This document shows, one piece after another, positions 3,386 through 31,957 of a stretch of 36,105 bases of DNA (positions are counted from its first letter, which is position 1; each line of letters opens with the position of its first letter). The stretch lies in IMG/VR virus record IMGVR_UViG_3300021602_000013, positions 1 to 36,105 of that record, one strand, 5' to 3'. The notes under the pieces were generated by a model that ran no database searches, was not told where the DNA came from, and worked only from the letters and a program-made list of their open reading frames with translations. The translations under genes were made by a program, and so were the position numbers. This DNA is from a virus.

Positions 3386-3393
3386 TATTTATA
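3386..3393 (-). promoter_or_regulatory. Late promoter TATAAATA, 4 bases from a start codon
   Basis: Perfect T4 late element between a terminator (3405-3423) and the ATG at 3381. The standard late start site would fall inside the start codon, which is unusual. Confidence 0.5.
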
Positions 3394-6579: not shown

Positions 6580-6608
6580 ATTATAACACATATCTAACGA
6601 TTTTTCAA
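6580..6608 (-). promoter_or_regulatory. Sigma70-type promoter for primase-helicase
   Basis: TTGAAA (6603-6608), 17 bp, TATAAT (6580-6585). The -35 lies within the 3' end of the endonuclease gene, so primase transcription does not depend on that gene's expression. Confidence 0.65.
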
Positions 6609-7298
6609 TATTTCAGGATAAATTCTTCTCACTACCCAATTATTGGAATCCTTTCTTTTCCTCTGGCTCTTTTTATTTTCTGTAGTTTTTCGGTATGCCG
6701 CAAATAACTGCCAATAAGTAATTCCAATCACACTACTAAAGTCTTTGGAGAACTCGGTTAGACCATTGTTGGCGATAAAGGTTTGACCAGTTGGACTTGT
6801 AATTTCATATCGCCCTCGGTGTGACTCACTCTTTCTGCGTTTGGTTACCGAGGTTTCCGGAGTTTTTGAAAAACGAGTGCGCTGCCCCATTGAACAGTTA
6901 TTACTTCGCTTACTTCTTCCCTCATCAGATAGTGAGGCATGATACTCAACCATTGCTGCCGTTCTTTTCACTTTTGATAGAGCCGAATGTTTAAAACCAT
7001 ATGCTCCTTCGCCACCGGTGGTTGAATTATATCCCTCATCCTTGGTGCTATGCTCTTTTATGAAAACTGGCTCCATCTGGTTTAGACAATGGTTACCTTC
7101 AGTAGATTGGTAAATAACTTCCCAAACAAAGGTATTCCATCCATGCTTTCTGATTGCATTGTAAAATTTATTTGAGGAGGTATCTCGTTTTGCAGCCGAT
7201 TTGTGTTCAGCTTTCCGTTTAGGCCAATGAGAGTCAAAACCTATATAGGATTTACCAGTAATGGTACAGGTTGCTTTGTAGATAGAATAAATATTCAT
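6594..7298 (-). CDS. GIY-YIG homing endonuclease beside primase
   Basis: 234 residues. The GIY-YIG domain is intact: 'YSIYK' (4-8), 'GKSYIGFD' (about 15-22), Arg and His in 'KRKAEHKS', 'FYNAIRKHGWNTFVW', the metal-binding Glu in 'QMEPVFIKEHS', and 'GYNSTTGGEG'. The rest is a basic DNA-binding region with a C-terminal recognition module ('YEITSPTGQTFIANN'). Free-standing enzymes of this kind cut related phage genomes near their own locus and spread by repair. ATG 7298 follows GGAGG with 9-base spacing. Upstream is a CTAAATA late promoter and a structured leader shared with two other endonuclease genes in the window. Confidence 0.9.
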   Translation of the reverse strand: MNIYSIYKATCTITGKSYIGFDSHWPKRKAEHKSAAKRDTSSNKFYNAIRKHGWNTFVWEVIYQSTEGNHCLNQMEPVFIKEHSTKDEGYNSTTGGEGAYGFKHSALSKVKRTAAMVEYHASLSDEGRSKRSNNCSMGQRTRFSKTPETSVTKRRKSESHRGRYEITSPTGQTFIANNGLTEFSKDFSSVIGITYWQLFAAYRKTTENKKSQRKRKDSNNWVVRRIYPEILKNR

Positions 7299-7365
7299 GC
7301 TGATGATCCTCCAGATCGTTAGAGAGGGCGGGAATCTCACCTCCGTGGCTCTCACATTTATTTAG
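7299..7365 (-). promoter_or_regulatory. Late promoter and 5' stem-loop leader of the endonuclease gene
   Basis: CTAAATA (7359-7365) preceded by GGA. The predicted +1 is 7352, exactly where AGAG begins; this pairs with CTCT about 25 bases on (near 7323-7326). GGAGG lies before ATG 7298. The leader is similar to those at 18637-18701 and 26183-26255. Confidence 0.55.
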
Positions 7366-8211: not shown

Positions 8212-8595
8212 ATGACCTCTATTGAACCATTTTTTGAAAGACTGACCACCTCACATCCTTTCATCACAATCGTTTCATACGCCGGTCAGGATTATGTGGG
8301 AATTGTTCAGAATAGGGATGATGTTGTCACCACTATATACGATTACGGTGCCATTATTGATCTGACAGTAAAAGAGAGATTCCTACAGTTAGGTGATATC
8401 TGGTGGTGGGAGAGTAACCGACTGATCCCAATTAACTTATTCCTCAGAGAAGAATGGGCGCAATTCAAGCCGTATATACGAACATTCAACAATAAGAGTT
8501 TGATTATACTACATGGCCCAACTTGCAGCATGAATGAGTTGGCAAAGCGCCGTAGCAAACGAAGATCAATTACGTTGGTCAGACGGCTTCCCTAG
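8212..8595 (+). CDS. Conserved T4-like phage protein, unknown function (127 aa)
   Basis: One of few plus-strand genes. Motifs 'TTSHPFITIVSYAGQDYVG', 'IVQNRDDVVTTIYDYG', 'LGDIWWWESNRLIPIN' and the basic tail 'AKRRSKRRSITLVRRLP' are as I remember from a conserved but unnamed family in T4-like phages of aquatic bacteria. The mRNA is predicted to be nearly leaderless from a late promoter. Its TAG stop (8593-8595) overlaps the TAG stop of the convergent minus-strand gene. Function unknown; an RNA- or DNA-binding tail is possible from charge alone. Confidence 0.7.
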   Translation: MTSIEPFFERLTTSHPFITIVSYAGQDYVGIVQNRDDVVTTIYDYGAIIDLTVKERFLQLGDIWWWESNRLIPINLFLREEWAQFKPYIRTFNNKSLIILHGPTCSMNELAKRRSKRRSITLVRRLP

Positions 8596-9173
8596 AATCC
8601 CCGTTGCTCTTTTATCAGGTTCATATGAACCACAACAAGGTGTGCGTAACTTACGGCGTGACTACGCTTAAACGCATACGCACCGTCAGTATCCTTCTCC
8701 CACACATCGTTCGCCACATCTTTCCAGAACCGTCCAATGAGGTGCTTCTTTGCCGGACGAATTACGGCAAGAAACATTGCCAGACGAGGAATGCTATTGA
8801 TCGGTTCTGGCATCCTGTGGATACTGTAGAAGTGATTGCCAAGGTGAATCAATTGCTCCACTGTTTCTTTATCTTTGAGCATATCCCAATTGGGTTCTCT
8901 CATCAGATATTTCAAATGGGCCTCATCGCGCACATGAGTATACACATGAACATTCAACAGATCCAGTTTGAAGTATCCACGTTCTTCTGCCTTAGCATAA
9001 TCAATTGCTGCCATGTCATTCACTGGATCATATGGCACATCGGTAATATGCACTCCTGAGGAATGTTTTCGTATCGGAGAAACTTCACGCATAGACGCAG
9101 GCACATGCTTGATATGCTCAAGAATCAGACTCCGATCTCCGAAGTCAATGTCTACGTCACCTTGGAATTTCAT
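8592..9173 (-). CDS. Small protein related to DNA polymerase III alpha (family C) segments
   Basis: 193 residues from ATG 9173, which overlaps the stop of the gene before it (ATGA) and has GGAAG 6 bases upstream. Two stretches recall bacterial DnaE: 'GDVDIDFGDR' (about 4-13) is like the palm motif containing the catalytic Asp-x-Asp, and 'FKRSHAVSYAHLVVVHM' (about 168-184) is like the finger motif usually written N-K-S-H-A-x-x-Y. The rest of the polymerase (over 1000 residues normally) is absent, so polymerase activity is unlikely; a derived binding role is inference. Similar short proteins occur in other T4-like phages as far as I recall. Confidence 0.65.
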   Translation of the reverse strand: MKFQGDVDIDFGDRSLILEHIKHVPASMREVSPIRKHSSGVHITDVPYDPVNDMAAIDYAKAEERGYFKLDLLNVHVYTHVRDEAHLKYLMREPNWDMLKDKETVEQLIHLGNHFYSIHRMPEPINSIPRLAMFLAVIRPAKKHLIGRFWKDVANDVWEKDTDGAYAFKRSHAVSYAHLVVVHMNLIKEQRGF

Positions 9174-9412
9174 TTTATCTTCCATGGCAAACAAGGTAGG
9201 CCATTACTCCAGCGATAAGTTGGCACTATTATGGGAGGTGCTTTTATTCCTTGTCCTCGTGCTGCTCTTGGTTTAACCGCAAGCATTGCCTTCCGTTCTA
9301 TCTCTGCTTGTTTTGCCGCTGCCACTTTTGCAACGAATTCTTTTCGTTGATTATCAGTTAATGGCACGTGATCTTTTCTATGCGGCTCCTCAGGAAAAAT
9401 AATATCGTTCAT
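9170..9412 (-). CDS. Small basic protein, unknown (80 aa)
   Basis: MNDIIFPEEPHRKDHVPL, a central Ala/Lys/Glu helix (EFVAKVAAAKQAEIERKAML), then a basic Pro-rich tail. It overlaps both neighbours by ATGA (9409-9412 and 9170-9173), so it is translationally coupled in the exonuclease operon. No recognisable domain. Confidence 0.55.
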   Translation of the reverse strand: MNDIIFPEEPHRKDHVPLTDNQRKEFVAKVAAAKQAEIERKAMLAVKPRAARGQGIKAPPIIVPTYRWSNGLPCLPWKIK

Positions 9413-9951
9413 GTCGAGACCACGCCGGCCTTGATCAACTTCTGATATGCTTTTTGTACTATAAATGCCTGACGCGCGGCATCCTCCACTGCTTTGTGAG
9501 TGGTGACGTATCCGCCGTCTCTGAGTGACACACCGGTGATATCAAACAGAGTACGGGTGTCCCGTACTGTGCTGAACTTCCACGGCTCGTTCATACCAAG
9601 CGATTGCCAGCATGTTTCCATGAGCACCACATCAAATGAGGCACCATGACTCCAGACATTATTCTGGTTCCAGCAGAACTTGTATAGTTTCTCCATGGCT
9701 TCTTTGAACGGAATACGATCACGATCAGAGAAGGCTTCCTCTTGGGCTGATTCGCTCTGAGTTGACCACCATTGAAGGGTGCCCTCATCAACCGTTCGTC
9801 CAAGGGCTTCTTGATCTTCCATTGTCGGTCGCAGTTCCAGACGGTCAATGATTCCTGTCCCCTTAGGGTCAAACTTCACCGCTCCAATTGTCAGTATTAC
9901 TGCTGTTGATTTTATTCCGATTGTTTCACAATCTATCATAAGGTGGGCCAT
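9409..9951 (-). CDS. DnaQ-like 3'-5' exonuclease (RNase H fold)
   Basis: 180 residues from ATG 9951. The exonuclease motifs are present: Exo I 'MIDCETIGI' (about 5-13), Exo II 'WSHGASFDVVLMETCW' (about 101-116), and Exo III as 'THKAVEDAARQA' with the His and Asp. 'LTIGAVKFDP' is the usual strand after Exo I. This size and motif spacing fit the phage and exonuclease VIII-type group that degrades DNA ends or trims RNA/DNA. The start overlaps the TAA of the preceding gene (TAATG), which decides against the longer frame to 10020. Confidence 0.85.
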   Translation of the reverse strand: MAHLMIDCETIGIKSTAVILTIGAVKFDPKGTGIIDRLELRPTMEDQEALGRTVDEGTLQWWSTQSESAQEEAFSDRDRIPFKEAMEKLYKFCWNQNNVWSHGASFDVVLMETCWQSLGMNEPWKFSTVRDTRTLFDITGVSLRDGGYVTTHKAVEDAARQAFIVQKAYQKLIKAGVVST

Positions 9952-10175
9952 TATATTGCTTTCTTTTGTCGTGTTAGTGGGGCTTCTCGTCTGGGCATGC
10001 CGCATCGGGCACAATAGCATTGTGCGAATGATACTCTGCCGCGTTCATATTCTTCTTCAAACAATTCCCAATTTGTCCATTGATGCCAGTTCATTCTGCA
10101 TTTCCAAGATTGAACCGGCTCTAAGTCCTTAAGAGTACGCCATGCGTTAAGTTTGGTGTGCTTTTCTGTTTTCAT
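9951..10175 (-). CDS. Small Cys-rich putative zinc-binding protein (74 aa)
   Basis: MKTEKHTKLNAWRTLKDLE, then 'WKCRMNWHQWTNWE', acidic residues and 'QCYCARCGMPRRE'. The Cys/His set (C..H..C-x-C-x2-C) suggests a zinc site. The start at 10175 overlaps the stop of the previous gene (ATGA). A sigma70-like promoter inside the upstream gene (10224-10252) can transcribe it separately from the array. Confidence 0.6.
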   Translation of the reverse strand: MKTEKHTKLNAWRTLKDLEPVQSWKCRMNWHQWTNWELFEEEYERGRVSFAQCYCARCGMPRREAPLTRQKKAI

Positions 10176-10360
10176 TCTTTCCACATTTCATACATTGTTT
10201 GGAGCTTCGGTTCCCATATGTCTATTATAACATTTCCTGAGTGAAAAGTAAAGTCCCATCCTTCACCGCGGGTCCCTAAATTTCTACGAAGCCATTTCAC
10301 AAAGGTAACCGGGTCATCATGACCTTTGGCTTTGGTGTTATAGTAGTAATACTTTTTCAT
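10172..10360 (-). CDS. Array gene 23 (3' end): diverged LRW-family relative
   Basis: 62 residues starting MKKYYYYNTKAKGHDDP. The helix 'FVKWLRRNLGTRGEGW' (about 20-35) matches the Trp-containing helix and Gly turn of the other members, but the C-terminus is 'LQTMYEMWKE' instead of L-R-W. ATG 10360 overlaps the TGA of gene 22 with AGGTGG upstream. The -10 of an internal promoter (10224-10229) lies within it. Confidence 0.65.
   Translation of the reverse strand: MKKYYYYNTKAKGHDDPVTFVKWLRRNLGTRGEGWDFTFHSGNVIIDIWEPKLQTMYEMWKE
10224..10252 (-). promoter_or_regulatory. Sigma70-like promoter inside array gene 23
   Basis: TTTACT (10247-10252), 17 bp, TATAAT (10224-10229). It would serve the zinc protein, DnaQ-like exonuclease and genes beyond. 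Confidence 0.5.
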
Positions 10361-10608
10361 GCCCACCTCAATAGAAAGTGAGTGGCGTCATGTGGATTCT
10401 CAAACCACCAAGAGTCTACACCGTAGTAGTGATAAAACTTCCCGGTGCTGGCTTGTAGCTGACACCAACGCTTCAGATCCGCATAGGGAAGACGCTCATT
10501 GAAGATGGCGAAGTCGGCGTTTGGTATCCACCGCGCCTTCTGCAACGGGTGATTCACTTTTGTCCAGCATCGCTTTCGTATCTCTTTATCTTTGTTCCAG
10601 AACTTCAT
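10357..10608 (-). CDS. Array gene 22: LRW-family protein (83 aa)
   Basis: Begins MKFWNKDKEIRKRCWTKV and ends 'WWFENPHDATHFLLRWA'. It is the clear sister of array gene 15 (11997-12260): the first 18 residues align (MKFWNKxxExRxRxWTxV), 'GKFY' is shared in the middle, and the C-terminus aligns too. This shows duplication within the array with other members in between. 'DLKRWCQLQASTGK' (about 44-57) is the Trp-Cys helix. The start has AGGTGGGT before ATG. Confidence 0.75.
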   Translation of the reverse strand: MKFWNKDKEIRKRCWTKVNHPLQKARWIPNADFAIFNERLPYADLKRWCQLQASTGKFYHYYGVDSWWFENPHDATHFLLRWA

Positions 10609-10814
10609 ACCCACCTCAATGCAAACCAAGCGGCATCTTTTTCTATGGCAAAATACCATACATCATAGTTAAAGAAGTACTTCATGCACCATGGTTTACT
10701 CTCAGTAACTTGGTCTCGTTCCATGGCCGGTGTTCCAATATTGGTCCGGCACCATTTCTTGATTTCGTTTATTTTTTCAAAGGACGAACATAATGTTACT
10801 TGTTGTTGAATCAT
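10605..10814 (-). CDS. Array gene 21: LRW-family protein (69 aa)
   Basis: MIQQQVTLCSSFEK, Trp-Cys helix 'IKKWCRTNIGTP' (about 18-29), aromatic strand 'MKYFFNYDVWYFAIE', C-terminal 'KDAAWFALRWV'. A compact full-length example of the shared domain. It ends R-W-V-stop because the junction reads AGGTGGGTATGA. Confidence 0.75.
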   Translation of the reverse strand: MIQQQVTLCSSFEKINEIKKWCRTNIGTPAMERDQVTESKPWCMKYFFNYDVWYFAIEKDAAWFALRWV

Positions 10815-11035
10815 GCCCACCTCAATAGGAACCATGCTAAATGTTCCTGCTCTTTGAAATAGAAAGTGGTGTATCCAAAACTGGCATCAATAGTCCAGGC
10901 TAAATCATGCTCTTTCCAAACGTTCGGATTCCATTCTATCCATTTGCCCAGTCCGATATGTTCGCGGCACCAATCCACCATCTCTTGATGTTGATGATAT
11001 TGTCCTCGACCAATGGTTACTTGATGCACGGTCAT
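10811..11035 (-). CDS. Array gene 20: LRW-family protein (74 aa)
   Basis: MTVHQVTIGRGQYHQH, helix 'EMVDWCREHIGLGKW' (about 18-32), strand 'GYTTFYFKEQ', C-terminal 'EHLAWFLLRWA'. Start after AGGTGGTC. Complete version of the family layout. Confidence 0.75.
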   Translation of the reverse strand: MTVHQVTIGRGQYHQHQEMVDWCREHIGLGKWIEWNPNVWKEHDLAWTIDASFGYTTFYFKEQEHLAWFLLRWA

Positions 11036-11196
11036 GACCACCTCAATACAAACCAAGCATAATCTTTCCGGTCCATAAAAATAAAAACTTTATTATATTG
11101 AACCCAGTTCGAGGGGCAATGCACCTGTGCCCAACGATACATCTCACCGTTAAGATACCAATTGCTTTTGTTCAACTTAAACCGATATCGTTTCAT
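11032..11196 (-). CDS. Array gene 19: short LRW-family protein (54 aa)
   Basis: A gene of only 54 codons: MKRYRFKLNKSNWYLN, 'GEMYRWAQVHCPSNW', 'KVFIFMDRKDYAWFVLRWS'. The Trp-Cys of the helix is replaced by Trp-Ala with a Cys three residues later. AGGTGGGC precedes ATG 11196 and its own end supplies AGGTGGTC to gene 20. It is the shortest member and probably close to the minimum domain. Confidence 0.75.
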   Translation of the reverse strand: MKRYRFKLNKSNWYLNGEMYRWAQVHCPSNWVQYNKVFIFMDRKDYAWFVLRWS

Positions 11197-11603
11197 GCCC
11201 ACCTCAGAGTAAACAGCACGTAATCTCTTTCGTCACGGAAGCGGAAACGATCATTGATCATATACCAGCGACACCAGGCATCTGGATAATCAGGCTGAGG
11301 GCCGAATTGTGCCACACACCAACTGAATTGTTCTCTGTTATATCTCATGAACGGCCACGGCGAAGAATGATCTATGGCCCTGTCAGCCTCGTACCATTTC
11401 GCCCGGGAGAATTTGTATTTAGATTTCGGCCTGTACCCTGCACTTATGGTGAATATCTCGTCCACCGGTCCGGTCATTGGCTGAACGCCGATGATCTGTT
11501 GAGCGATAGTATTCGGCCATATATGGAGAATTATCGGCAGCAGTGCCTTTTGCGCTGAGGCAAATATAGATTTTACCAATGCCGGATCGTGTTTAGTAAT
11601 CAT
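11193..11603 (-). CDS. Array gene 18: extended LRW-family protein (136 aa)
   Basis: The N-terminal 75 residues are an extra segment (MITKHDPALVKSIFASAQ and following) not seen in most members. The family domain follows: 'QFSWCVAQFGPQPDYP' (about 92-107) and 'RFRFRDERDYVLFTLRWA' at the end. The start ATG 11603 overlaps the TGA of gene 17, but that junction lacks AGGTGG, so its translation must use another ribosome site or coupling alone. Confidence 0.7.
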   Translation of the reverse strand: MITKHDPALVKSIFASAQKALLPIILHIWPNTIAQQIIGVQPMTGPVDEIFTISAGYRPKSKYKFSRAKWYEADRAIDHSSPWPFMRYNREQFSWCVAQFGPQPDYPDAWCRWYMINDRFRFRDERDYVLFTLRWA

Positions 11604-11833
11604 AAGCAGTTAAGGATAAACCATGTTGCTTCTTTGCCGTTTTTGAAGAAAATCACATCACCTTTATTAAGCAGAAACACCCAATAGACATCTTCTTTTG
11701 AGATACCCGAGTCATAAAGCCATTGCTCATATGAAGCAATAGAGCGGTCCTCGGGAATCGTCACCGGTGTCCAACCTGATACCTGGTACATGGCATCATG
11801 ACAATTTTCCAGAAATCCAATAGATTCAATCAT
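11600..11833 (-). CDS. Array gene 17: member with lost LRW ending (77 aa)
   Basis: MIESIGFLENCHDAMYQV, a middle part 'SYEQWLYDSGISKEDVYW' and C-terminal 'KNGKEATWFILNCL'. The usual R-W codons AGG TGG have become AAC TGC, which removes both the protein motif and the downstream ribosome site. Start after AGGTGGTC at 11833. Confidence 0.7.
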   Translation of the reverse strand: MIESIGFLENCHDAMYQVSGWTPVTIPEDRSIASYEQWLYDSGISKEDVYWVFLLNKGDVIFFKNGKEATWFILNCL

Positions 11834-12000
11834 GACCACCTCAACATAAACCAAGCATAATCTTTTTCGTCATTGATTCTGATTCGATACGGCACTGAGA
11901 AGAAAGAGTGCGGATCTGTCACATACTCAATGATGTCATATACTATTTTATTCTCTGCAAGCCATTCTAATTCCCGGCGACGAATAGTGAGAATCTTCAT
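11830..12000 (-). CDS. Array gene 16: short LRW-family protein (56 aa)
   Basis: MKILTIRRRELEWLAENK, then 'YDIIEYVTDPHSFFSVPY' and 'RIRINDEKDYAWFMLRWS'. The Trp-Cys helix is only loosely kept ('LEWLAENK'). The last 10 residues are close to those of gene 19 (KDYAWF-LRWS). Confidence 0.7.
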   Translation of the reverse strand: MKILTIRRRELEWLAENKIVYDIIEYVTDPHSFFSVPYRIRINDEKDYAWFMLRWS

Positions 12001-12260
12001 GACCACCTCAATAAAAACCACGTGGCATCAGCCGCGTTTTCAAACCAAATCTCTTTGTTCAGTATCATCATATAGAACTTTCCTTTACCCGGAGTATGTT
12101 GTAACTCTCGTTTCATTTTCTCAAACGGCCCGCGTTGATACCATCCGGCAAACGGTGTGACCCCAGGTGGATACATCTTATCTGCGTCGGTATCCCGAGG
12201 TAGTTCCACCATAGTCCAGTGTCGCCGTCTGACTTCAGGGTGCTTGTTCCAGAACTTCAT
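11997..12260 (-). CDS. Array gene 15: LRW-family protein, sister of gene 22 (87 aa)
   Basis: MKFWNKHPEVRRRHWTMVEL at the start and 'EIWFENAADATWFLLRWS' at the end. The start pairs with gene 22. The end is also nearly identical to gene 14 ('WFFENAADAAWFILRWK'), also at DNA level, which suggests local conversion or a recent duplication of 3' ends. Its start is preceded by AGGTGGAA... in the CTTAGG context of gene 14. Confidence 0.75.
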   Translation of the reverse strand: MKFWNKHPEVRRRHWTMVELPRDTDADKMYPPGVTPFAGWYQRGPFEKMKRELQHTPGKGKFYMMILNKEIWFENAADATWFLLRWS

Positions 12261-12565
12261 TTCCACCTTAGGATAAACCATGCGGCATCAGCGGCGTTTT
12301 CAAAAAACCAGTGACCGTTATAACTACGATGACTTCCTTTGATATTTTCAGCGAACCATTTGTCAACGATACCTGGATCATTTGACCGAGTGGTTAACAC
12401 CGCATCAACCGCTGTCCAACCTGAACTGATCAGAATAGCCGATAATATTCCCCAATCAATATCTTCCTGTATCAACTTGGACATTGAATCAAGCAGTTCT
12501 TGATCGTATTCTATGTCACCACTGGATGTCTCGCAGGTCCAATTTGCGCTTAGTGTTCGCATCAT
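12257..12565 (-). CDS. Array gene 14: LRW-family protein (102 aa)
   Basis: Starts MMRTLSANWTCETSSGDI. Contains 'DIDWGILSAILISSGWTA', helix 'GIVDKWFAENIKGSHR' (about 67-82) and 'WFFENAADAAWFILRWK'. Longer N-terminal part than most. The junction reads AGGTGGAAATGATG, giving two possible adjacent start codons (12565 or 12562). Confidence 0.7.
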   Translation of the reverse strand: MMRTLSANWTCETSSGDIEYDQELLDSMSKLIQEDIDWGILSAILISSGWTAVDAVLTTRSNDPGIVDKWFAENIKGSHRSYNGHWFFENAADAAWFILRWK

Positions 12566-12771
12566 TTCCACCTCAGTATAAACATCATGGCGTCCTTCTC
12601 ATGTTTGAAATGCCAGTTGTATCCGCCGGTGATGTGGCCGGCCCAGAAACACATCCAGATTCCGTCATGATTATCTGTCACGCTCCATCTTGGTCCGAAG
12701 TTTTCAATACACCACTTCGTCGCGGCGTAATCAAGTCGGGTCGTTACTACTTTGTATGCGAAACCTTTCAT
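12562..12771 (-). CDS. Array gene 13: LRW-family protein (69 aa)
   Basis: MKGFAYKVVTTRLDYAATKW; helix 'ATKWCIENFGPRWS' (about 17-30), 'IWMCFWAGHI', 'NWHFKHEKDAMMFILRWK'. A textbook member: WC helix, F-G-P turn, aromatic strand and C-terminal motif all present. The start follows AGGTGGTC. Confidence 0.75.
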   Translation of the reverse strand: MKGFAYKVVTTRLDYAATKWCIENFGPRWSVTDNHDGIWMCFWAGHITGGYNWHFKHEKDAMMFILRWK

Positions 12772-12980
12772 GACCACCTTAGCAGACACATCATGTAATC
12801 TCTTTCTTCTTTGAAGTAGTATCCGCGAAATGATGTACACCATTGGCCTTCGTCAGAGTTTTCAATTGGGATATCGCCGTACTTTTCCACGCACCATATA
12901 TAAATCTCATCATCGTCGTTGATGAATGGAGTGCTGTGATAAAAGTACGGAAATATTTCCAGAACCCGTTTGTGATTCAT
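12768..12980 (-). CDS. Array gene 12: LRW-family protein (70 aa)
   Basis: MNHKRVLEIFPYFYHSTP, 'EIYIWCVEKYGDIPIE' (about 25-40), 'CTSFRGYYFKEERDYMMCLLRWS'. Its own start at 12980 overlaps the stop of gene 11, where AGGTGG is absent, so initiation there is weak or coupled. Confidence 0.7.
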   Translation of the reverse strand: MNHKRVLEIFPYFYHSTPFINDDDEIYIWCVEKYGDIPIENSDEGQWCTSFRGYYFKEERDYMMCLLRWS

Positions 12981-13159
12981 GTCTGCGACAGAATAAACCA
13001 TACACGATTTTTGTCGTCGTCAAATTCAAAGCGACCATTCCCAACATACCACCAGGATCCGTCTGGCAGATTCTGTTCACACCATAGATAAGCCCGATCC
13101 ATCTTGTCTATCAGATACTCAATTCGGGCGGCATACATTTTCATGTCAACAATGTTCAT
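12977..13159 (-). CDS. Array gene 11: member with altered ending (60 aa)
   Basis: MNIVDMKMYAARIEYL, 'RAYLWCEQNLPDGSWW' (about 22-37), 'GRFEFDDDKNRVWFILSQT'. The usual L-R-W-S is L-S-Q-T, so the junction to gene 12 has no AGGTGG. The rest of the domain is intact, which makes it a useful comparison with gene 17. Confidence 0.7.
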   Translation of the reverse strand: MNIVDMKMYAARIEYLIDKMDRAYLWCEQNLPDGSWWYVGNGRFEFDDDKNRVWFILSQT

Positions 13160-13554
13160 GACCACCTCAGTCCAAACCACATACAATCTTGCTCGTTCTT
13201 GAACGCCACAAACAGAATATCACTGCCGCCTAACTCATTGATGACCCAGTCTCCCCAGTGATCTTTAATCACGCGATGAAAGTCGTCACGCCATTTGTCC
13301 TGGCAATTCTCTCGGAGCCACTTCTTCATCACTTCCAGTCCGATTTCCCATCCGCCGAACTCTGCCCAGAACTCTGCTGAATACTGAAGTTCATACAGAA
13401 ACGGGTAGCCCGGATACATATCTTTCACTCTGCCGGCGCGGAAGTTTGTGCCGTCGTCAAACGCCCGATCATACTGCGCTTCGGTATAGCCCATCCGCTT
13501 CAGCCGGTTGGCATGAGCAATTGACTGTATTTTCTGTTTGATTGTGGTAATCAT
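13156..13554 (-). CDS. Array gene 10: first gene of the second block, extended LRW-family protein (132 aa)
   Basis: MITTIKQKIQSIAHANRLKR, 'GYTEAQYDRAFDDGTN', then helix 'VMKKWLRENCQDKW' (about 75-88) and 'VAFKNEQDCMWFGLRWS'. It is read from its own sigma70-like promoter with the predicted +1 on the A of ATG 13554, so the mRNA would be leaderless. It starts the 13.5-10.2 kb part of the array. Confidence 0.75.
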   Translation of the reverse strand: MITTIKQKIQSIAHANRLKRMGYTEAQYDRAFDDGTNFRAGRVKDMYPGYPFLYELQYSAEFWAEFGGWEIGLEVMKKWLRENCQDKWRDDFHRVIKDHWGDWVINELGGSDILFVAFKNEQDCMWFGLRWS

Positions 13555-13560
13555 CTTGCT

Positions 13561-13589
13561 ATTATATCACACCGTGGATTATCAGACAA
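13561..13589 (-). promoter_or_regulatory. Sigma70-like promoter of the second array block
   Basis: TTGTCT (13584-13589), 17 bp, TATAAT (13561-13566). Six bases separate the -10 from ATG 13554. Confidence 0.65.
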
Positions 13590-13591
13590 GA

Positions 13592-13978
13592 TCAACGGTT
13601 AAGTATTGCCCACATATCAAGTTTTTGGCGCATCTGTTCTTCGCTCTTATTTGCTTCCCAAACTCGTTCTCGGGCATCGCGGACCTCTGCCCGTTGTCTG
13701 GTCATCTCATCCGAAAGGCCCTTGAGCATATCATAAACGGTCCGAGCTTTTAGTTCTTCTATTTGTCGTTGAAGTTCTGCGTTGTCATCCTGAAGCACTT
13801 CAATCTCGCTGTCTTGATTCCGGAAGATGTCTTCCACATCTTCCGGACTTTTGAGTGGGAAGATGAGCTTCCACTCTACTAACTCTTTGACCATTGTCAG
13901 CAGCCGTTTAACATCTGGTCCGGGATTTGCCAGCCAGAGTTCCGTGCAAAATTCGTCGTCAGTTAGGTTGTTCATCAT
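13592..13978 (-). CDS. Array gene 9: coiled-coil protein (128 aa)
   Basis: MMNNLTDDEFCTELWL, then a long heptad-like stretch (about 55-120) rich in Glu, Arg, Gln and Leu ('EVLQDDNAELQRQIEELKAR'). It ends 'KLDMWAILNR' and has no L-R-W motif. It overlaps gene 8 by 20 bases. Not a clear relative of the array family; possibly a cargo gene between the two array blocks. No function recognised. Confidence 0.65.
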   Translation of the reverse strand: MMNNLTDDEFCTELWLANPGPDVKRLLTMVKELVEWKLIFPLKSPEDVEDIFRNQDSEIEVLQDDNAELQRQIEELKARTVYDMLKGLSDEMTRQRAEVRDARERVWEANKSEEQMRQKLDMWAILNR

Positions 13979-14237
13979 TTGTCAGCATCTCAAAAAGTCT
14001 GGCATACTCGGTATAAGGTTCTTGAGCGAACCCAGTTGATCGCCATACCCGTCGTTTGAATATCTTCTCCATGTATACCCATTTGCCGGTGATCGTTCTC
14101 ACCGGTGTAATGGCATAGAATTCCGTCCACGGTCGTTCAATTGACATAAGGTCACCTTCAGGGTATGCTCCGGCCATGATCATCCCTGATCTGACGAAGT
14201 GCTTAACTCGCCTGGTGTATTCTTCTTCAGTTTCCAT
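13959..14237 (-). CDS. Array gene 8: conserved small phage protein (92 aa)
   Basis: From ATG 14237, METEEEYTRRVKHFVRSG, then 'RPWTEFYAITPVRT', 'GKWVYMEKIFKRRVWRST' and 'EYARLFEMLTNDEQPN'. The segment 'KRRVWRSTGF..EPYTEYA' resembles one I recall in other T4-like phages. GGTGG lies 10 bases upstream, inside the end of gene 7. A longer start at 14261 is possible. It does not end in L-R-W. Confidence 0.6.
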   Translation of the reverse strand: METEEEYTRRVKHFVRSGMIMAGAYPEGDLMSIERPWTEFYAITPVRTITGKWVYMEKIFKRRVWRSTGFAQEPYTEYARLFEMLTNDEQPN

Positions 14238-14475
14238 TTTGTAATAACCACCATATTTCATCTTGTTCTGTTTCAAACACAATATTGACCAAATACTCAT
14301 TCATGGCTCGTAGCCTGCTGTATGAATAGTTCGCCGCTTTTCTGTTCCATGTCATCTTCCACGGTCCGGGGTGAAGCAATCGGAATTCTCGTTCCAGATC
14401 AAACAATGTTCGTATATCCATTGGCTCAAACTTATATGAGTTCTGGATTCTACGCAGATCATCTTGCCAGTTCAT
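14227..14475 (-). CDS. Array gene 7: diverged member (82 aa)
   Basis: MNWQDDLRRIQNSYKFE, 'GPWKMTWNRKAANYSYS', and C-terminal 'FETEQDEIWWLLQNGN', which keeps the E-x-x-E-x-W-W-L-L frame of the family but not R-W. ATG 14475 overlaps the TGA of gene 6. Confidence 0.65.
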   Translation of the reverse strand: MNWQDDLRRIQNSYKFEPMDIRTLFDLEREFRLLHPGPWKMTWNRKAANYSYSRLRAMNEYLVNIVFETEQDEIWWLLQNGN

Positions 14476-14753
14476 ACTGTTTGCGCCTTTAATTTAATCC
14501 ACATAAACTCTTTCATGTCAACGGGGGAAGTCTCATCCACGTATCTATGCTTGACGAATCTGACACCGTCATCTGATTCAAGCCAGGCGCGATTGGCAAA
14601 TTGCATTGGCTTGGTTTTAAAATTCAAATACTTAACAGGTTCAAAAGTTTTTGGATTAGTAATATAATACTCTACTACATCCGTCTGCACCAGATATTTG
14701 TCACCATTGTATCTGTCAATACAGGCATCAGCAATTTCGTAATAGACGTTCAT
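14472..14753 (-). CDS. Array gene 6: diverged member (93 aa)
   Basis: MNVYYEIADACIDRYNGD at the start and 'MKEFMWIKLKAQTV' at the end. This ending is also seen in the 11-codon remnant at 15270-15305. Start after AGGTGGTT. The middle has no clear Trp-Cys helix. Confidence 0.65.
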   Translation of the reverse strand: MNVYYEIADACIDRYNGDKYLVQTDVVEYYITNPKTFEPVKYLNFKTKPMQFANRAWLESDDGVRFVKHRYVDETSPVDMKEFMWIKLKAQTV

Positions 14754-14977
14754 AACCACCTCAGGGCAAACCATACAGCATGTTTTTCATTTCTGAAGAA
14801 GAATCTTTCCATTACCATTCTATCAATGATGATAGTACGGGACGTCCAAATAACTTTCTTCCAGTTCAAATTTTGAACGGGGCCGTATGATGCATCTGGC
14901 AGACCTAATTCACTTTTCACACACTTATATGCCTGATATTGTCTGTCACCCGGAATATCAATTGAGGTGTATTTCAT
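14750..14977 (-). CDS. Array gene 5: LRW-family protein (75 aa)
   Basis: MKYTSIDIPGDRQYQ, helix 'QAYKCVKSELGLPDAS' (about 15-30), 'MERFFFRNEKHAVWFALRWL'. The helix has Lys-Cys in place of Trp-Cys. Start after AGGTGGTC at 14977. Confidence 0.75.
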   Translation of the reverse strand: MKYTSIDIPGDRQYQAYKCVKSELGLPDASYGPVQNLNWKKVIWTSRTIIIDRMVMERFFFRNEKHAVWFALRWL

Positions 14978-15291
14978 GACCACCTCAATACTAACATGGC
15001 ATACAGGTGTTCGTGAACGTCAACATGCAGACGCCAGCTTCCACCAGGAACATAGGTCCATTGTGTGGAGTTCAGTGACTTCAACCAATACATAACCTCG
15101 GGTTCAATGAACAGGGTATACCACATGTGGCCGTCAACATCTGCCTCAGACAGTTTCATAAACTTCGGCGGATTATAGTCTCTCATGTATATCTCATTGC
15201 AGGGGTTCGGGTGTACGCCCAACGATTGTCCGTACAGGACAGAAGAGGTACCACGCGGCTTGTGCGTTGTTATGTTTTTAGTTTTATCCAC
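14974..15291 (-). CDS. Array gene 4: LRW-family protein, GTG start (105 aa)
   Basis: The likely start is GTG 15291: AAGGAG lies 5 bases upstream, inside the short remnant frame. The protein has 'VMYWLKSLNSTQWTYV' (about 67-82) and 'VDVHEHLYAMLVLRWS' at the end. The N-terminal 40 residues are low in recognisable structure, so a start further in (for example the Met in 'YMRDYNPPK') cannot be excluded. Confidence 0.6.
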   Translation of the reverse strand: MDKTKNITTHKPRGTSSVLYGQSLGVHPNPCNEIYMRDYNPPKFMKLSEADVDGHMWYTLFIEPEVMYWLKSLNSTQWTYVPGGSWRLHVDVHEHLYAMLVLRWS

Positions 15292-15305
15292 ACTAACTCC
15301 TTCAT
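15270..15305 (-). pseudogene. Eleven-codon remnant of an array gene
   Basis: ATG 15305 overlaps the stop of gene 3 after AGGTGGTT, as for every array gene, but the frame is only MKELVWIKLKT. This matches the C-terminus of gene 6 (KEFMWIKLKAQTV), also in nucleotides (ATGAARGAGTT then GTGGATWAAA). The simplest reading is an internal deletion that joined a start codon to the end of a family member. The AAGGAG inside it now serves gene 4. Confidence 0.5.
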
Positions 15306-15517
15306 AACCACCTCAACATAAAGAACGCGGCGTCTTTGTCACGCTCAAACCAGATTACCATAGCTGAACCAGACGAGTGATATGACATAGCGTAAGAGTT
15401 CTTATCCCATTGTGTTAATGTGTCTAACCAATCTCTAATCTCTTTCACTTCTGCCACTCTGGCATTGAAACTCTCGGAGCTAAATTCAAGTGGTTTAATT
15501 GGGTAATGAACAATCAT
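15302..15517 (-). CDS. Array gene 3: LRW-family protein (71 aa)
   Basis: MIVHYPIKPLEFSSES, helix 'EIRDWLDTLTQWDK' (about 26-39), 'AMVIWFERDKDAAFFMLRWL'. Trp-Leu replaces Trp-Cys. Start after AGGTGGGC at 15517. Confidence 0.75.
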   Translation of the reverse strand: MIVHYPIKPLEFSSESFNARVAEVKEIRDWLDTLTQWDKNSYAMSYHSSGSAMVIWFERDKDAAFFMLRWL

Positions 15518-15753
15518 GCCCACCTCAGTATAAAAAGTACCCGATCAGATTCTTTCACAAAGTAATACTTGTTGTCACCGGCCATCCATGTTCTCGTTGA
15601 CCAGGCACCAGGTGGTCCAAATGTTTCAGTACACCATTTCCATATTTCATCACATATCTCTGAATGGTCTTCCCAATCAGTGTTGTCCCACTGCGGAGAC
15701 ACCCAATGATACATGGTACTTATTGACTTATATTTGCCAACTTTCAATATCAC
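15514..15753 (-). CDS. Array gene 2: LRW-family protein, GTG start (79 aa)
   Basis: The junction reads AGGTGGTCGTGA, so the start is GTG 15753 in a GTGA overlap. MILKVGKYKSISTMYH, helix 'EIWKWCTETFGPPGAW' (about 36-51), 'NKYYFVKESDRVLFILRWA'. It has all family marks. Confidence 0.75.
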   Translation of the reverse strand: MILKVGKYKSISTMYHWVSPQWDNTDWEDHSEICDEIWKWCTETFGPPGAWSTRTWMAGDNKYYFVKESDRVLFILRWA

Positions 15754-15983
15754 GACCACCTCAGTATAAACGCTGTGACGTGCTTGGGATCCGCGAAGAA
15801 ATATCCGCGAGATATCCAGTCGCCACCATCACGGAACCAATTCTTTCGTCCGACATTCTTGTTACACCAAACCTGTACTTCATCATCCAGATCATCTGTG
15901 TCCAGATCAACGTATGACTGATATTTGAAGGTGACTTTCTGTTTGAACCGTCTCTCAATTTGTCTGCGTTCTCTGGAGTTCAT
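15750..15983 (-). CDS. Array gene 1 (5' end): LRW-family protein (77 aa)
   Basis: MNSRERRQIERRFKQKV (basic), helix 'EVQVWCNKNVGRKNW' (about 35-49), 'RGYFFADPKHVTAFILRWS'. Its ATG shares one base with the TGA of the 232-residue zinc-finger gene before it (TGATG), so the array is joined to the operon that comes from 17.5 kb. Confidence 0.75.
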   Translation of the reverse strand: MNSRERRQIERRFKQKVTFKYQSYVDLDTDDLDDEVQVWCNKNVGRKNWFRDGGDWISRGYFFADPKHVTAFILRWS

Positions 15984-16681
15984 CAGTATCCTGCTTGTTT
16001 TAACAACCCCTTCACCGTTAGTGCAGTTTCAGGGTCGCGTTTAAATTTAATTGCCCATTGTTCCGGGTTAATATAATCAATGACTATTCTAACATGATCC
16101 TGATTTAATGTCGAGAGAAATTGTGTCCCACTGTCGCTTTGGTACAACAACCAGGGACTTATCTTTCCAAGCGTGATTTGATAGCATATCTTGTTTGGAT
16201 TACAATACCGTAACAGATCATTTGGTTGAATTCCTTCTTCCTTGGTCATCCGAATACAGGTTTCAACGCTGCGATGAATGGCATCAAATGGATCCTCAAT
16301 TCTTATGTACTCAATGAGATACCGAGTATAGATTGAATCGTGACACCATTGGTCAATTTTGATTTGTTCTTTTAGTAGCCAGTCTGCGAACCTACTGACA
16401 TTGATGGCATTGATGTTTACACAATGAGTGCCGAACTTGGCAAACGCCGTATAATATGCGCTCTTTATGAATTCCTGATAGGTGCGATTCTTCTTACTGG
16501 TGCTATTCTTTGTGTAGAATTGCAGCCATGTTTGAAAGCCGATGCGATTGCCTTGCTTGTCTTTTTCTTGCCAGCGGTGTTTGTACTCACAGATATGTTT
16601 GAACTCTGTGGTCTCCCGAAGGAAAGTTCGTCCGCAGAACTCGCATCCGAACTTCGGTTTAGTTTCCGCTGTCTCTGTCAT
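15983..16681 (-). CDS. Zinc-finger-containing conserved T4-like protein (232 aa)
   Basis: An N-terminal C2H2-like finger 'CEFCGRTFLRETTEFKHIC' (about 13-31) is followed by a helical body: 'IGFQTWLQFYTKN', 'FIKSAYYTAFAKFGTHC', 'FADWLLKEQIKIDQWC', 'DLLRYCNPNKICYQIT', 'GKISPWLLYQSDSG', end 'VKGLLKQAGY'. I recall a family with this finger plus body in many cyanophage-type T4-like genomes, without a firm function. It overlaps the end of the preceding gene by 23 bases. Its place near replication genes would fit a DNA-binding role. Confidence 0.7.
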   Translation of the reverse strand: MTETAETKPKFGCEFCGRTFLRETTEFKHICEYKHRWQEKDKQGNRIGFQTWLQFYTKNSTSKKNRTYQEFIKSAYYTAFAKFGTHCVNINAINVSRFADWLLKEQIKIDQWCHDSIYTRYLIEYIRIEDPFDAIHRSVETCIRMTKEEGIQPNDLLRYCNPNKICYQITLGKISPWLLYQSDSGTQFLSTLNQDHVRIVIDYINPEQWAIKFKRDPETALTVKGLLKQAGY

Positions 16682-17246: not shown

Positions 17247-17529
17247 GTGGACCCTTCTTCCATACTTCTTTGACGATGGTCATGCTGACTGAATCGGGGT
17301 GCCACGGTGACATATCACAAAGGCATCCGCAGAACTCACCCATCTCAGGCACCCACGGAATACTCCACAGATTGTATTCGTTGCGGATGTATCGTCCGAG
17401 AGTATCGTGATACCTTGATAGCTTGTTATCGTCTTTGAGTCCGGTTAGGAAGAATTCATTGAGTGCATCTGTAGCCCACTCTTTCAGAATCATCCTGTGG
17501 ACATCATCAATTAAATCCGTATGCGTCAT
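17236..17529 (-). CDS. Small conserved protein, unknown (97 aa)
   Basis: MTHTDLIDDVHRMILKEW, 'LNEFFLTGLKDDNKLSRYHD', 'EMGEFCGCLCDMSPWHPDS'. The cluster C-G-C-L-C is notable but has no matching pair nearby. It overlaps the cyclotransferase-like gene by 23 bases and the possible gp62 gene by 11 bases, so it belongs to the same translational chain. Confidence 0.55.
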   Translation of the reverse strand: MTHTDLIDDVHRMILKEWATDALNEFFLTGLKDDNKLSRYHDTLGRYIRNEYNLWSIPWVPEMGEFCGCLCDMSPWHPDSVSMTIVKEVWKKGPHGN

Positions 17530-17923
17530 GGTGTTCTAAATTGGGGTCAGCAATTCCAGATTCTTCCAGACCTTCTAACACCGAGTAAAAATAATGTTCA
17601 CTTGGGTAACATTCACGGACTTGACGACGGTGATGCCGTGTCATGATGTAAACCCATGCGGCCCTTGTTCGACCGTGGTGCTGAACCCGAACCATTTCCC
17701 TTGTATAAGAATAAGGATATCCTTCGCGCCTGTCTAATTGCTTCAACAGATTATAATCTATTTCCCATAGAACGCCAAGGACCGAGTTACCCGGACGCCT
17801 AAACACGTTGGCATGACTGAGCATCTCCCAGGCGAACCCCGGCAGTTCGGCTGCTCCTAATCTTCGTGCTTCTGCTGACATGATATTACTGTTTGTCAAC
17901 ATTCCATATGTAAATACCAACAT
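17507..17923 (-). CDS. Gamma-glutamylcyclotransferase-like protein (GGCT/AIG2 fold)
   Basis: 138 residues from ATG 17923. 'LVFTYGMLTN' (2-11) is the Y-G-x-L substrate loop of the family, 'LPGFAWEML' follows, 'SVLGVLWEID' is the core strand, and 'QLDRREGYPYSYTRE' carries the catalytic Glu (D-x-x-E-G). Bacterial enzymes of this fold act on gamma-glutamyl amines or peptides; the phage substrate is unknown. The start overlaps the stop of the broken endonuclease frame (TAATG). The frame upstream to 17977 is not needed. Confidence 0.8.
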   Translation of the reverse strand: MLVFTYGMLTNSNIMSAEARRLGAAELPGFAWEMLSHANVFRRPGNSVLGVLWEIDYNLLKQLDRREGYPYSYTREMVRVQHHGRTRAAWVYIMTRHHRRQVRECYPSEHYFYSVLEGLEESGIADPNLEHHDAYGFN

Positions 17924-18636
17924 TAATTTACTTTTCTTCTCTTTGATTCGGCTGAACTTACTTGGACAAAATCCCAATCAACCATTGGTATATTGCGTGA
18001 CAACATATCGCTTTTCATATTTAAAAACAATTGTTGTGGTATTCGTTTACTAAATCCAAACTTGTCAGTCACCGTCACTTGCCCGGCAGACGCTTTACTC
18101 CATTTCTCACCGCCCTTTTTACCTTTGATGCTGCCATTAGCGCGGCGCTCCTCGGAAGTAAGTTTACCTAACCCATTCATATATTTCTCATGGCGTTGTT
18201 CTTTTGTTAGTAAAGCAAATGTTTTTTCATAGGACCTTTTACCGGACAATATCATTTTTTCTTTCGTGTCGTTTGTTCTTCGTAATATCGCATCTTTCAT
18301 CTTTTGTATCATCGCCGGTGTTGAAGGCTTTCCTTTATTCTACGGTTCCTCGGTAGTTTTACCACCACCGCCATTTTCTTCCATTAAATTAGCCCATGCT
18401 CCACTTTCAGTAACATTCCATAGTTCACTATAATGAAGCCCCCATTTCTTCAATTCATCTTTAGATTGACATTCACAGATAATTTCAGTGAGGATAGTCT
18501 TCCCGTGCTTATTCAAGTGAAGTAACCAATGTTTTCCGGAGCCAAGATACTTGTGAGGATCCTTCTTTTTTGTTTGGCAGAGGTATTTTAGACCGGTGAT
18601 AGTATGGGTCTTAACCATGAGGTAATAAATAGTCAT
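17923..18636 (-). pseudogene. GIY-YIG homing endonuclease split by an in-frame amber codon
   Basis: The first 98 codons (from ATG 18636) encode a GIY-YIG-type N-terminus: 'IYYLMVKTHTITGLKYLCQT', 'DPHKYLGSGKHWLLHL', 'ESGAWANLMEENGGGG'. A TAG at 18340-18342 follows 'KTTEEP'. The same frame then continues without shift as NKGKPSTPAMIQKMKD through a NUMOD-like basic region to a normal C-terminus, 237 sense codons in all. One nonsense change therefore separates the nuclease domain from the DNA-binding part. The leader and first codons (AGGAGCACCAGCATGACTAT) match the intact gene at 26256. Confidence 0.8.
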
Positions 18637-28803: not shown

Positions 28804-29637
28804 CTAAAGAGTGATGTCTTCCATGTCCGCGTAATACCACCCTGCCCATTTCATACTATCACTTAGACAGTGGGCCCTAACCGTACCTTCACAGAGACTA
28901 TTCTTATCAGCAGCTTCCCGAATAGTACCAAATAATCCGAGAGGGGTACACACTGCCCTAGCCTGTCCGTGCCTGGCGCCGCGCGCCATATTATTTTTCC
29001 GCTGCTCTGCTGCATCTTTGCCAAATATTTCTTCCCATGTCTTGCCCTTTTTAGCATTGGACATCTTACTGATCTGCTCATTTGTCATACTTCTGCCGGT
29101 TAATTTGGATCGCACTTTTTCTGTTCTTTCGAAGGAATGCTTTGCGCCAATTTGATGGTCATTTCCGGCCTTCTTTCGTGATGCAGCCATGTTGGCCAAT
29201 CGTGGGTCAGAATCCTTCGAAAGGCCCTTATTCCATGGGATCTTTCCAGTCATTGTCCTACTCCTATATTCTTTGAACGCAGCAGACCTAATCTTCCCTC
29301 GCATCTTTTTCTTAGTTTCTTCAGTATGACCGGAGTTCTTCCATCTACCCCTTTCATTGGTTTTCTGATAGTGCTTGTTTAAACACAGGGGAGATAGAAA
29401 GTTTTCCTTAATTAATTCCTGTTCAAAATCATATGCGTCATCTGCTAAATAGAACTCCGCAATTATTTCATAAATAAATTGATTGAAGATGGGTGCAATG
29501 TGCTTGGATGAGGTAAAATAATGATACCCTAGGTCTTGTCCCGCCGGAATGCCCAAACCTACATTTTTATATCGATAACCGAAATAAAACTCATCGGTAT
29601 CGGGATTTGTCAGCTTATACACATATGGTAGTATCAT
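28804..29637 (-). CDS. GIY-YIG homing endonuclease with NUMOD repeats, next to uvsY
   Basis: 277 residues. GIY-YIG variant 'PYVYKLTNPDTDEFYFGYRY' (4-23), helices with 'FIYEIIAEFYLADDAYDFEQ' carrying the metal-binding Glu, then basic NUMOD-type repeats ('GHTEETKKKMRGKIRSAAFK', 'SDPRLANMAASRKKAG', 'GRSMTNEQISKMSNAKKGKT'), and a C-terminal helix-turn-helix recognition module ('PLGLFGTIREAADKNSLCEG' then TVRAHC). The start ATG 29637 lies in the 3' arm of a hairpin that also holds the ribosome site. It stops with TAG. Confidence 0.9.
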   Translation of the reverse strand: MILPYVYKLTNPDTDEFYFGYRYKNVGLGIPAGQDLGYHYFTSSKHIAPIFNQFIYEIIAEFYLADDAYDFEQELIKENFLSPLCLNKHYQKTNERGRWKNSGHTEETKKKMRGKIRSAAFKEYRSRTMTGKIPWNKGLSKDSDPRLANMAASRKKAGNDHQIGAKHSFERTEKVRSKLTGRSMTNEQISKMSNAKKGKTWEEIFGKDAAEQRKNNMARGARHGQARAVCTPLGLFGTIREAADKNSLCEGTVRAHCLSDSMKWAGWYYADMEDITL

Positions 29638-31453: not shown

Positions 31454-31949
31454 GGGTTTTTTCCTTAATATAATTCATAATTTTCTCCAATTCGTCATAA
31501 GTCATATCTGACTTTAGTTTATTTGCTCTCCAAGAGATAATAAAAACATTTCCTGGCACATAACCAAGTTCCGGGATAACCTTGTCAATAGTAGCTTTAC
31601 AAGGATCCCTGAGATGTCCATTTTTACCTCCCCAACCATAATTTAATTTGATACCTAATATCGGACAGAATTCAGGCTGCTCAATATCAGATAGTTGAAT
31701 TGTAAATGGAATACCCCTTTTCTGCGCCTGCTGTTTTCGTGACCTAAACTGCCAACTTAGTGTATTTTCAAGAGAGCGATAACGATCCCGATCTATAGAG
31801 TATAACTCATTCCGTGAACATTCAACACACATATGGGTAGACACAAACCGATCTGCAACATGACCTCTCCTGCAGGATTTTCCTGTATGATACGTTGACT
31901 CTCCGGCGAGAACTGCCAGGTCACGCTCGGAGCATCTTCTATTAGCCAT
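31446..31949 (-). CDS. HNH-type homing endonuclease upstream of uvsX
   Basis: 167 residues from ATG 31949. N-terminal zinc-like Cys/His set 'YHTGKSCRRGHVADRF' and 'HMCVECSRNE' (about 24-52). The nuclease part has 'PEFCPILGIKLNYGW', 'ATIDKVIPELGYVPGNVFII' then SWRANKLKSD. The 'D-K/R-x..GYVxGNVxxISWRANxLKSD' pattern is typical of phage HNH and related enzymes. The C-terminus (KTHG) overlaps the uvsX start by 8 bases, which suggests insertion exactly at the gene border. It overlaps or abuts the BPSL0761-like gene upstream; the TTG start at 31961 is less likely. Confidence 0.85.
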   Translation of the reverse strand: MANRRCSERDLAVLAGESTYHTGKSCRRGHVADRFVSTHMCVECSRNELYSIDRDRYRSLENTLSWQFRSRKQQAQKRGIPFTIQLSDIEQPEFCPILGIKLNYGWGGKNGHLRDPCKATIDKVIPELGYVPGNVFIISWRANKLKSDMTYDELEKIMNYIKEKTHG

Positions 31950-31957
31950 GTTTTCTT

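Follow-up and report, generated by a model that had tools for sequence, protein, structure and literature searches.

A hypervariable island of small paralogous genes in T4-superfamily phages, some with capsid-like segments

Array layout and family membership

The DNA analysed here (the window) is a 36 kb IMG/VR virus record, IMGVR_UViG_3300021602_000013, of 36,105 nucleotides. It carries T4-superfamily replication genes, by which its virus is recognizable as a T4-superfamily phage. Within the replication gene cluster, flanked by a gene for a 232-residue protein and an exonuclease gene, the minus strand at 10172-15983 holds an island of 23 back-to-back open reading frames (ORFs), which according to the ORF list and the junction listing are transcribed from right to left. 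Neighbouring ORFs share a start-stop overlap of 4 nt (ATGA or GTGA) in most cases. A first-pass annotation of this DNA had proposed that about 20 of the 23 genes are diverged paralogues with one small domain in common; the count holds, as 18 are clear members of one family and another is a probable member. The family is real, widespread and apparently undescribed; the island that houses it is of a generally known type, with what appears to be an unexpected capsid-mimic component.

The 18 clear members (named as in Table 1) match the family profile at an expect value (E) of 2e-6 or lower, the profile having been seeded with these same 18. By this profile w10172 is the probable nineteenth member, w14227 is borderline, and w13592, w13959 and w14472 are non-members. 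In a leave-one-out test, each of the 18 was compared with 300 shuffles of itself, with and without its last 8 residues. With full tails, 17 outscored all of their own shuffles; w14974 was the exception, with 10 of 300 shuffles scoring equally. Once the last 8 residues had been cut, 13 of the 18 were still equalled by at most one shuffle in 300 (w10357, w10605, w10811, w11032, w11193, w11997, w12257, w12562, w12768, w12977, w13156, w14750 and w15514) and w15750 by three, while the within-window membership of w11600, w11830, w14974 and w15302 depends mainly on the tail. Across 81 related viral loci, the iterated full profile collected 565 member ORFs, from 76 of the loci, and a body-only profile (last 9 columns dropped) matched 83 ORFs at E<1e-3; neither matched any reversed ORF. 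The expansion noticed in the first pass is seen across many related phages.

Fold of the shared domain

The shared C-terminal domain comprises a Trp-Cys helix, an aromatic strand or two, and a last helix ending in WFxLRWx, and its remaining positions are very variable. AlphaFold2 models of w11193 and w12257, built from input alignments of 73 and 29 rows, respectively, show the same C-terminal beta-alpha-beta-beta-alpha arrangement, with a predicted local distance difference test (pLDDT) score of mostly about 90 in this part; the overall predicted template-modelling (pTM) scores are modest (0.49 and 0.59). The two proteins are divergent, with a pairwise identity in the twenties (%). The helix-strand-helix description given in the first pass agrees with both models. 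Its W-F-x-L-R-W ending applies to 16 of the 18 members, in that these end in L-R-W, but not to w11600 (LNC) or w12977 (LSQ); of its length range of 54-136 residues the upper limit stands, whereas the lower limit is 56 when counted from the first start codon.

No known family accounts for this domain. With 146 diverse members as queries, no Pfam, PHROG or NCBIfam family matched it, nor did these searches reveal a nuclease or intein motif in it; the PADLOC defence profiles gave only three scattered single-member matches. The PDB comparison of the two models returned weak, generic beta-alpha-beta-beta-alpha matches (best Z scores 4.5 and 4.0), none above background and with no family prominent. 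A search of the open-access literature brought up no account of an array like this one, subscription papers being outside its range. The first-pass claim of an undescribed family is upheld to this extent, and the only well-characterized family to emerge, the capsid protein Gp23, matched the N-terminal additions of a few members rather than the shared domain.

Gene junctions

The terminal L-R-W serves two purposes. Its codons, TTG AGG TGG, give the DNA sequence TGAGGTGGnnATGA, a Shine-Dalgarno sequence just 5' of the following gene's overlapping start, and the junction can be written TGAGGTGG or TGAGGTGGTCATGA. Conservation of L-R-W is thus partly a DNA constraint. We counted codons across all loci in 290 distinct members with LRW, of which 269 have an overlapping next start and 21 do not. 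Leucine is encoded by TTG in 204 of the 269 but in two of the 21, and arginine by AGG in 165 of the 269 but in three of the 21. Where no overlapping gene follows, the residues are retained in different codons. Since the bias accompanies the overlap while the amino acids persist, L-R-W reads as a protein motif whose codon choice is dictated by what the following gene requires. The arrangement would allow coupled reinitiation, and last residues that encode the ribosome-binding site of the following gene would make a simple gene-swapping device.

Such a junction raises the question of whether junction DNA is all that these genes have in common, their proteins being unrelated. The strong codon bias and the five members that become weak once the tail is cut are what such an explanation would predict. 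Nevertheless, the body-only profile has matches and none among reversed ORFs, 13 of the 18 members keep their signal without the last 8 residues, L-R-W persists in other codons where no gene follows, and the same fold is predicted twice. As the two modelled members are divergent, their common C-terminal fold argues that the domain is more than a junction repeat, and we consider unrelated proteins extremely improbable; the first pass had itself named different folds joined by a common junction as the finding that would undo its proposal, and the models and profiles contradict it.

Exchange and selection within the island

The flanking genes serve as anchors for comparing the site between phages. 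In PA5oct and 121Q the anchors are 17 and 343 bp apart, respectively, and enclose no members. Both anchors are also present in 42 environmental loci, where they stand 1.1-9.2 kb apart and enclose 3-23 members, and where all family members except one fall between them. The 56 arrays have 44 different compositions, yet one cluster comes first in 43 of 43 arrays and another last in 18 of 20, and some member clusters are retained in 40-58 loci. When the window is compared with its near relative L002, seven of ten edges of conserved blocks are no more than 20 bp from a junction (expected 16%; p ~2e-4 if the edges are independent), and the synonymous divergence (dS) of neighbouring array genes varies from 0.07 to 1.05. 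In w14974 the 5' part differs from that of its L002 orthologue, which indicates exchange inside the gene. From these comparisons, genes are exchanged one by one at junctions, and some, such as w14974, within the gene.

The ratio of nonsynonymous to synonymous divergence (dN/dS) is 0.10-0.37 for array genes when the window is set against L002 and 0.10-0.21 over greater divergences, compared with 0.04-0.10 for the flanking genes; for the domain half of w11193 it is 0.6, on few changes. The array genes are constrained, more loosely than core genes, and show no gene-wide positive selection, for which the first pass had suggested testing between members, although pairwise values of 0.1-0.37 may leave room for positive selection at single sites.

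An island of this kind could also be a by-product of recombination, a junction hot spot at which cassettes pile up by duplication and illegitimate fusion, most of the proteins doing little and any capsid segments being relics. The mosaic arrays, the breaks near junctions, the many orphan members and the exchange within genes are all compatible with such an origin. It is harder to reconcile with dN/dS values of 0.1-0.37 between the window and L002 and 0.10-0.21 at greater depth, with clusters kept in 40-58 loci at fixed positions, or with frames that stay open in hundreds of copies, and we judge it unlikely.

Capsid protein segments

The N-terminal segment of w11193 is homologous to the major capsid protein Gp23, matching Pfam PF07068 (E 1.4e-8; 35 bits, cut-off 24.4), PHROG 138 (E 1.1e-7) and our own Gp23 profile (E 9e-9). 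The match covers only positions 2-51 of the 376 in PF07068, in an ORF of 136 residues, and full-length gp23 sits elsewhere in relatives. By these matches w11193 contains a Gp23 fragment and is not a full-length capsid member, for which about 400-520 residues would be expected. A tblastn search with the fragment matched 1501 phage records, the best matches being in annotated major capsid proteins. Gp23 was matched by eight of the 146 diverse members and each other Pfam family by one; Gp23 and the PHROG head-protein families alone matched more than one member. In 11,058 small ORFs the Gp23 profile gave 15 matches, some of them the same ORF in two loci, against one in reversed ORFs.

These pieces derive from up to three regions of Gp23, numbered by each phage's own protein. 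The first (a), at about residues 53-100, occurs in w11193, L002, the second array of G001, L091, L094, L044, L020, G015 in L313 and a Phosso ORF at 182 kb. The second (b), at about 321-352 with the sequence FYxPYIPL, occurs in L092, L093:1952-2293 (by eye) and Phosso XYS97328.1 at 114 kb; in the isolate Phosso, an 'FYTPYVPL' piece is joined to the shared domain. The third (c), the EIDxEI helix at about 206-231, is less certain and belongs to the w12257 cluster (hhalign probability 64 and E 6e-5 against the Gp23 profile, next best cluster 3.5; Pfam Gp23 E 0.027). One operon slot between epimerase and aminotransferase genes holds piece (a), from the N-terminal part of Gp23, in small ORFs of two phages (L094:1498-1845 and L091:1498-1854) and, in a third, an array-domain gene with piece (b), from the C-terminal part of Gp23 (L092:1492-1791). 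No extra Gp23 fragments were found in PA5oct, Atu_ph07, SCTP-2, 121Q or T4, where gp24 is a full-length relative. An origin of the pieces as assembly artefacts is unlikely: the frame is kept in independent contigs (L002, G001 and G015), and two pieces occur in Phosso, which is an isolate. The 226-residue Phosso ORF at L220:1396-2076 (182.3 kb) carries a Gol-like Gp23 piece with no array-domain match; its deposited annotation begins downstream and omits the piece.

Piece (a) aligns with T4 gp23 residues ~93-122, which we take to be the place of the Gol peptide, and so represents the part of the capsid protein for which a host contact is known. Capsid proteins are triggers of several defences, and a capsid protein activates CapRel (PMC9712102). 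Gol, a stretch of 29 residues within the first quarter of T4 gp23, is described as the most conserved region of the protein; it binds EF-Tu and makes it cleavable by Lit (PMC3014915). As Lit and CapRel sense capsid protein, naturally occurring small proteins with capsid segments would let one test directly whether phages dampen such sensing. What points to w11193 as a Gol-type activator of Lit or as a binder of EF-Tu is its likeness to the Gol region only.

The target of such proteins might instead be the capsid: by means of their Gp23 pieces they might insert into its lattice or cap it, whether to regulate assembly, as internal or decoration proteins, or to inhibit the capsids of co-infecting phages in a dominant-negative manner. 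The recurrence of three Gp23 regions (~53-100, 206-231 and 321-352) and the standing of Gp23 as by far the commonest donor would agree with this, but most members have no capsid piece, the array has no TATAAATA motif of the T4 late-promoter type, and the island lies among replication genes; a role in the capsid seems to us improbable.

Other donor proteins may be missed, as profile detection favours conserved segments. N-termini resembling the NrdA active site (NLCxEI, as NLCKEI) and a P-loop (GRxxGKS) occur in L034:8976-9461, L026:10033-10440, L035:3217-3621 and L093:1952-2293. We do not claim these as donor pieces, their scores being weak (E 0.03-0.34), though no reversed ORF matched, and a Pfam search for ribonucleotide reductase found no fragments. 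The N-terminal pieces of members in general could be traces of mobile elements: homing endonucleases and inteins target the most conserved sites of essential genes, and the pieces would then be exon-like flanks that these had carried along. Homing-type endonucleases are encoded in the window, and the NrdA and P-loop likenesses of some members would agree with this, but the shared domain has no nuclease or intein motif and the NrdA and P-loop matches are weak, so that we hold this origin to be highly improbable.

Distribution among phages

Members are not confined to the anchor site. A 364 kb contig has 33, including a second array at 200-205 kb, and seven of ten large contigs that had been picked by gp23 or nrdA, not by this locus, carry members, one of them 30. 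Profile searches of whole records found about 47 members (E<0.1; about 40 if E<0.001 is required) in Sinorhizobium phage Phosso, six in Atu_ph07 and three in PA5oct, a single weak match in an unrelated-looking 286-residue ORF of SCTP-2, and none in T4 or 121Q. A tblastn search with one member had matched no named phage, so the whole-record profile search was needed. In the regions inspected, the Phosso members are annotated as hypothetical proteins. Some members adjoin Clp protease or Clp ATPase genes (L207:18549-19188 in PA5oct and L206:19160-21698 in Phosso), possibly by coincidence. A search of GTDB genomes for a host found nothing. This is a multigene family of up to ~47 copies per phage with no match in the libraries searched, and it is open to bench testing, as its jumbo phage carriers include the cultured Phosso, Atu_ph07 and PA5oct.

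Expression signals and neighbouring genes

The window has five TATAAATA motifs against 1.0 expected, at 3386, 3900, 4183, 26261 (minus) and 18855 (plus), and none inside the array; a good sigma-70-like site lies at 19246-19218, 5' of the upstream gene block. This placement fits early or middle expression of the array without amounting to proof.

Among the T4-like replication genes are two homing-endonuclease-like genes and one endonuclease of HNH or endonuclease VII type (6594-7355, 28804-29637 and 31446-31961). A short DNA-polymerase-like gene (PHROG 11778) at 8592-9194, near the exonuclease gene at 9409-10020, suggests that the polymerase is possibly split, and the operon upstream of the array encodes a gamma-glutamyl cyclotransferase-like protein (PHROG 2520) at 17507-17977.

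Table 1. Genes and segments of the array and its flanks in window coordinates
Feature	Position	Strand	Remarks
Whole paralogue array, 23 ORFs	10172..15983	-	18 clear and 1 probable member, 1 borderline ORF; other 3 outside the family
Conserved 232-residue gene, upstream anchor	15983..16681	-	Conserved beside island
w15750, 77 residues	15750..15983	-	Cluster present in 24 loci
w15514, 81 residues, array gene	15514..15759	-	Leave-one-out profile test
w15302, 73 residues, array gene	15302..15523	-	Family profile E 2.6e-12; body alone weak
w14974, 105 residues, array gene	14974..15291	-	5' part unlike L002 orthologue; weakest of the 18
w14750, 77 residues, array gene	14750..14983	-	Leave-one-out profile test
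w14472, 100 residues, inside array, no clear member	14472..14774	-	E 0.29
w14227, 82 residues, borderline	14227..14475	-	E 0.003
w13959, 113 residues, non-member	13959..14300	-	E 0.28
w13592, 128 residues, non-member	13592..13978	-	E 2.9
w13156, 132 residues, array gene	13156..13554	-	Cluster in 16 loci; dN/dS 0.16-0.21
w12977, 69 residues, array gene	12977..13186	-	Terminus LSQT, without LRW
w12768, 77 residues, array gene	12768..13001	-	Leave-one-out profile test
w12562, 93 residues, array gene	12562..12843	-	True start likely near 12768
w12257, 104 residues, array gene	12257..12571	-	Cluster of 43 members in 42 loci; model has long N-terminal helix, then beta-alpha-beta-beta-alpha domain
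Part of w12257 like the Gp23 EIDxEI helix	12425..12505 (limits approximate)	-	hhalign against Gp23 profile
w11997, 94 residues, array gene	11997..12281	-	Leave-one-out profile test
w11830, 63 residues, array gene	11830..12021	-	Mainly tail signal
w11600, 84 residues, array gene	11600..11854	-	Terminus LNCL, without LRW
w11193, 136 residues, Gp23 fragment and shared domain	11193..11603	-	Profile matches, predicted model
w11193 residues 15-62, fragment of major capsid protein Gp23	11418..11561	-	Pfam, PHROG and own Gp23 profile; aligned with T4 Gol region
w11032, 56 residues, array gene	11032..11202	-	Leave-one-out profile test
w10811, 81 residues, array gene	10811..11056	-	Leave-one-out profile test
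w10605, 76 residues, array gene	10605..10835	-	Leave-one-out profile test
w10357, 100 residues, array gene	10357..10659	-	Leave-one-out profile test
w10172, 64 residues, probable last member	10172..10366	-	E 4e-5; resembles cluster placed last in 18/20 arrays
Exonuclease gene, downstream anchor	9409..10020	-	PHROG 255 E 4e-46

Proposed mechanism

We tentatively propose, with a little less than even confidence, that the array is a hypervariable cassette island, translationally coupled and shuffled at its junctions, whose products are adaptors directed at the host, capsid mimics among them. Each cassette would be a small gene whose last codons (TTG AGG TGG) serve as the ribosome-binding site of the next, the stop-start overlap (ATGA) would let the row be translated by coupled reinitiation, and the common junction would let any cassette be exchanged with its neighbours unharmed. 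The C-terminal beta-alpha-beta-beta-alpha domain could act as a common scaffold or adaptor, with the N-terminal part and the surface as the variable business end. Several cassettes have gained Gp23 segments and hence resemble the capsid protein. The proteins may act inside the cell on host translation (EF-Tu) or on defence sensors; those with capsid segments may do so by mimicking Gp23, and may mislead or hijack host factors that recognize capsid protein. A bolder version, which we think rather doubtful, would make the arrays a shuffling decoy library, in which the adaptor domain presents fragments of the best-conserved phage proteins (Gp23 and possibly also ribonucleotide reductase and the replicative helicase) to tie up host immune sensors or EF-Tu that recognize these proteins.

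The architecture and the exchange are well supported; the function is what we infer from them, and several observations weigh against our proposal. Most members are without a recognizable capsid piece, and the Gp23 pieces are old and diverged, with only the most conserved segments detectable. The N-terminal segments are modelled with low confidence. A dN/dS below 0.4 denotes constraint, not an arms race, over whole genes. The first-pass interpretation is partly supported, with binding of variable host targets and counter-defence as its conjectural part; L-R-W as a DNA constraint, exchange near junctions and the Gp23 fragments had been missed.

Comparison with known systems

Three known systems bear comparison with the island. 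The first is Gp23 and Gol of T4: w11193 and other members hold the same conserved N-terminal segment of the capsid protein, but here as about 25-50 residues fused to an unrelated small domain. The second is a group of phage proteins found with Foldseek in BFVD, where the matches of similar length were uncharacterized proteins, nearly all from 'uncultured Caudovirales phage' and one from Agrobacterium phage Atu_ph07. They are like the array proteins in predicted fold and length and are probably family members, with no function or family name on record.

The third is the PeSL elements, which Arbiol and co-workers reportedly described in 2010 in Genome Biol Evol as mobile regulatory cassettes in T4-type hypervariable regions, the RB49-type junction being said to consist of an intergenic promoter and a stem-loop. 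In both cases small accessory genes of T4-superfamily phages are swapped singly at short repeated junctions. The first difference lies in the junction, which in the island is a coding overlap of a Shine-Dalgarno sequence and a stop-start, as opposed to the promoter and stem-loop reported for PeSL; promoter- or terminator-like sites do not recur at each array junction, where genes overlap by ~4 nt. The second is that the genes of the island are all of one protein family. The island resembles PeSL in its working but is not a member of that class.

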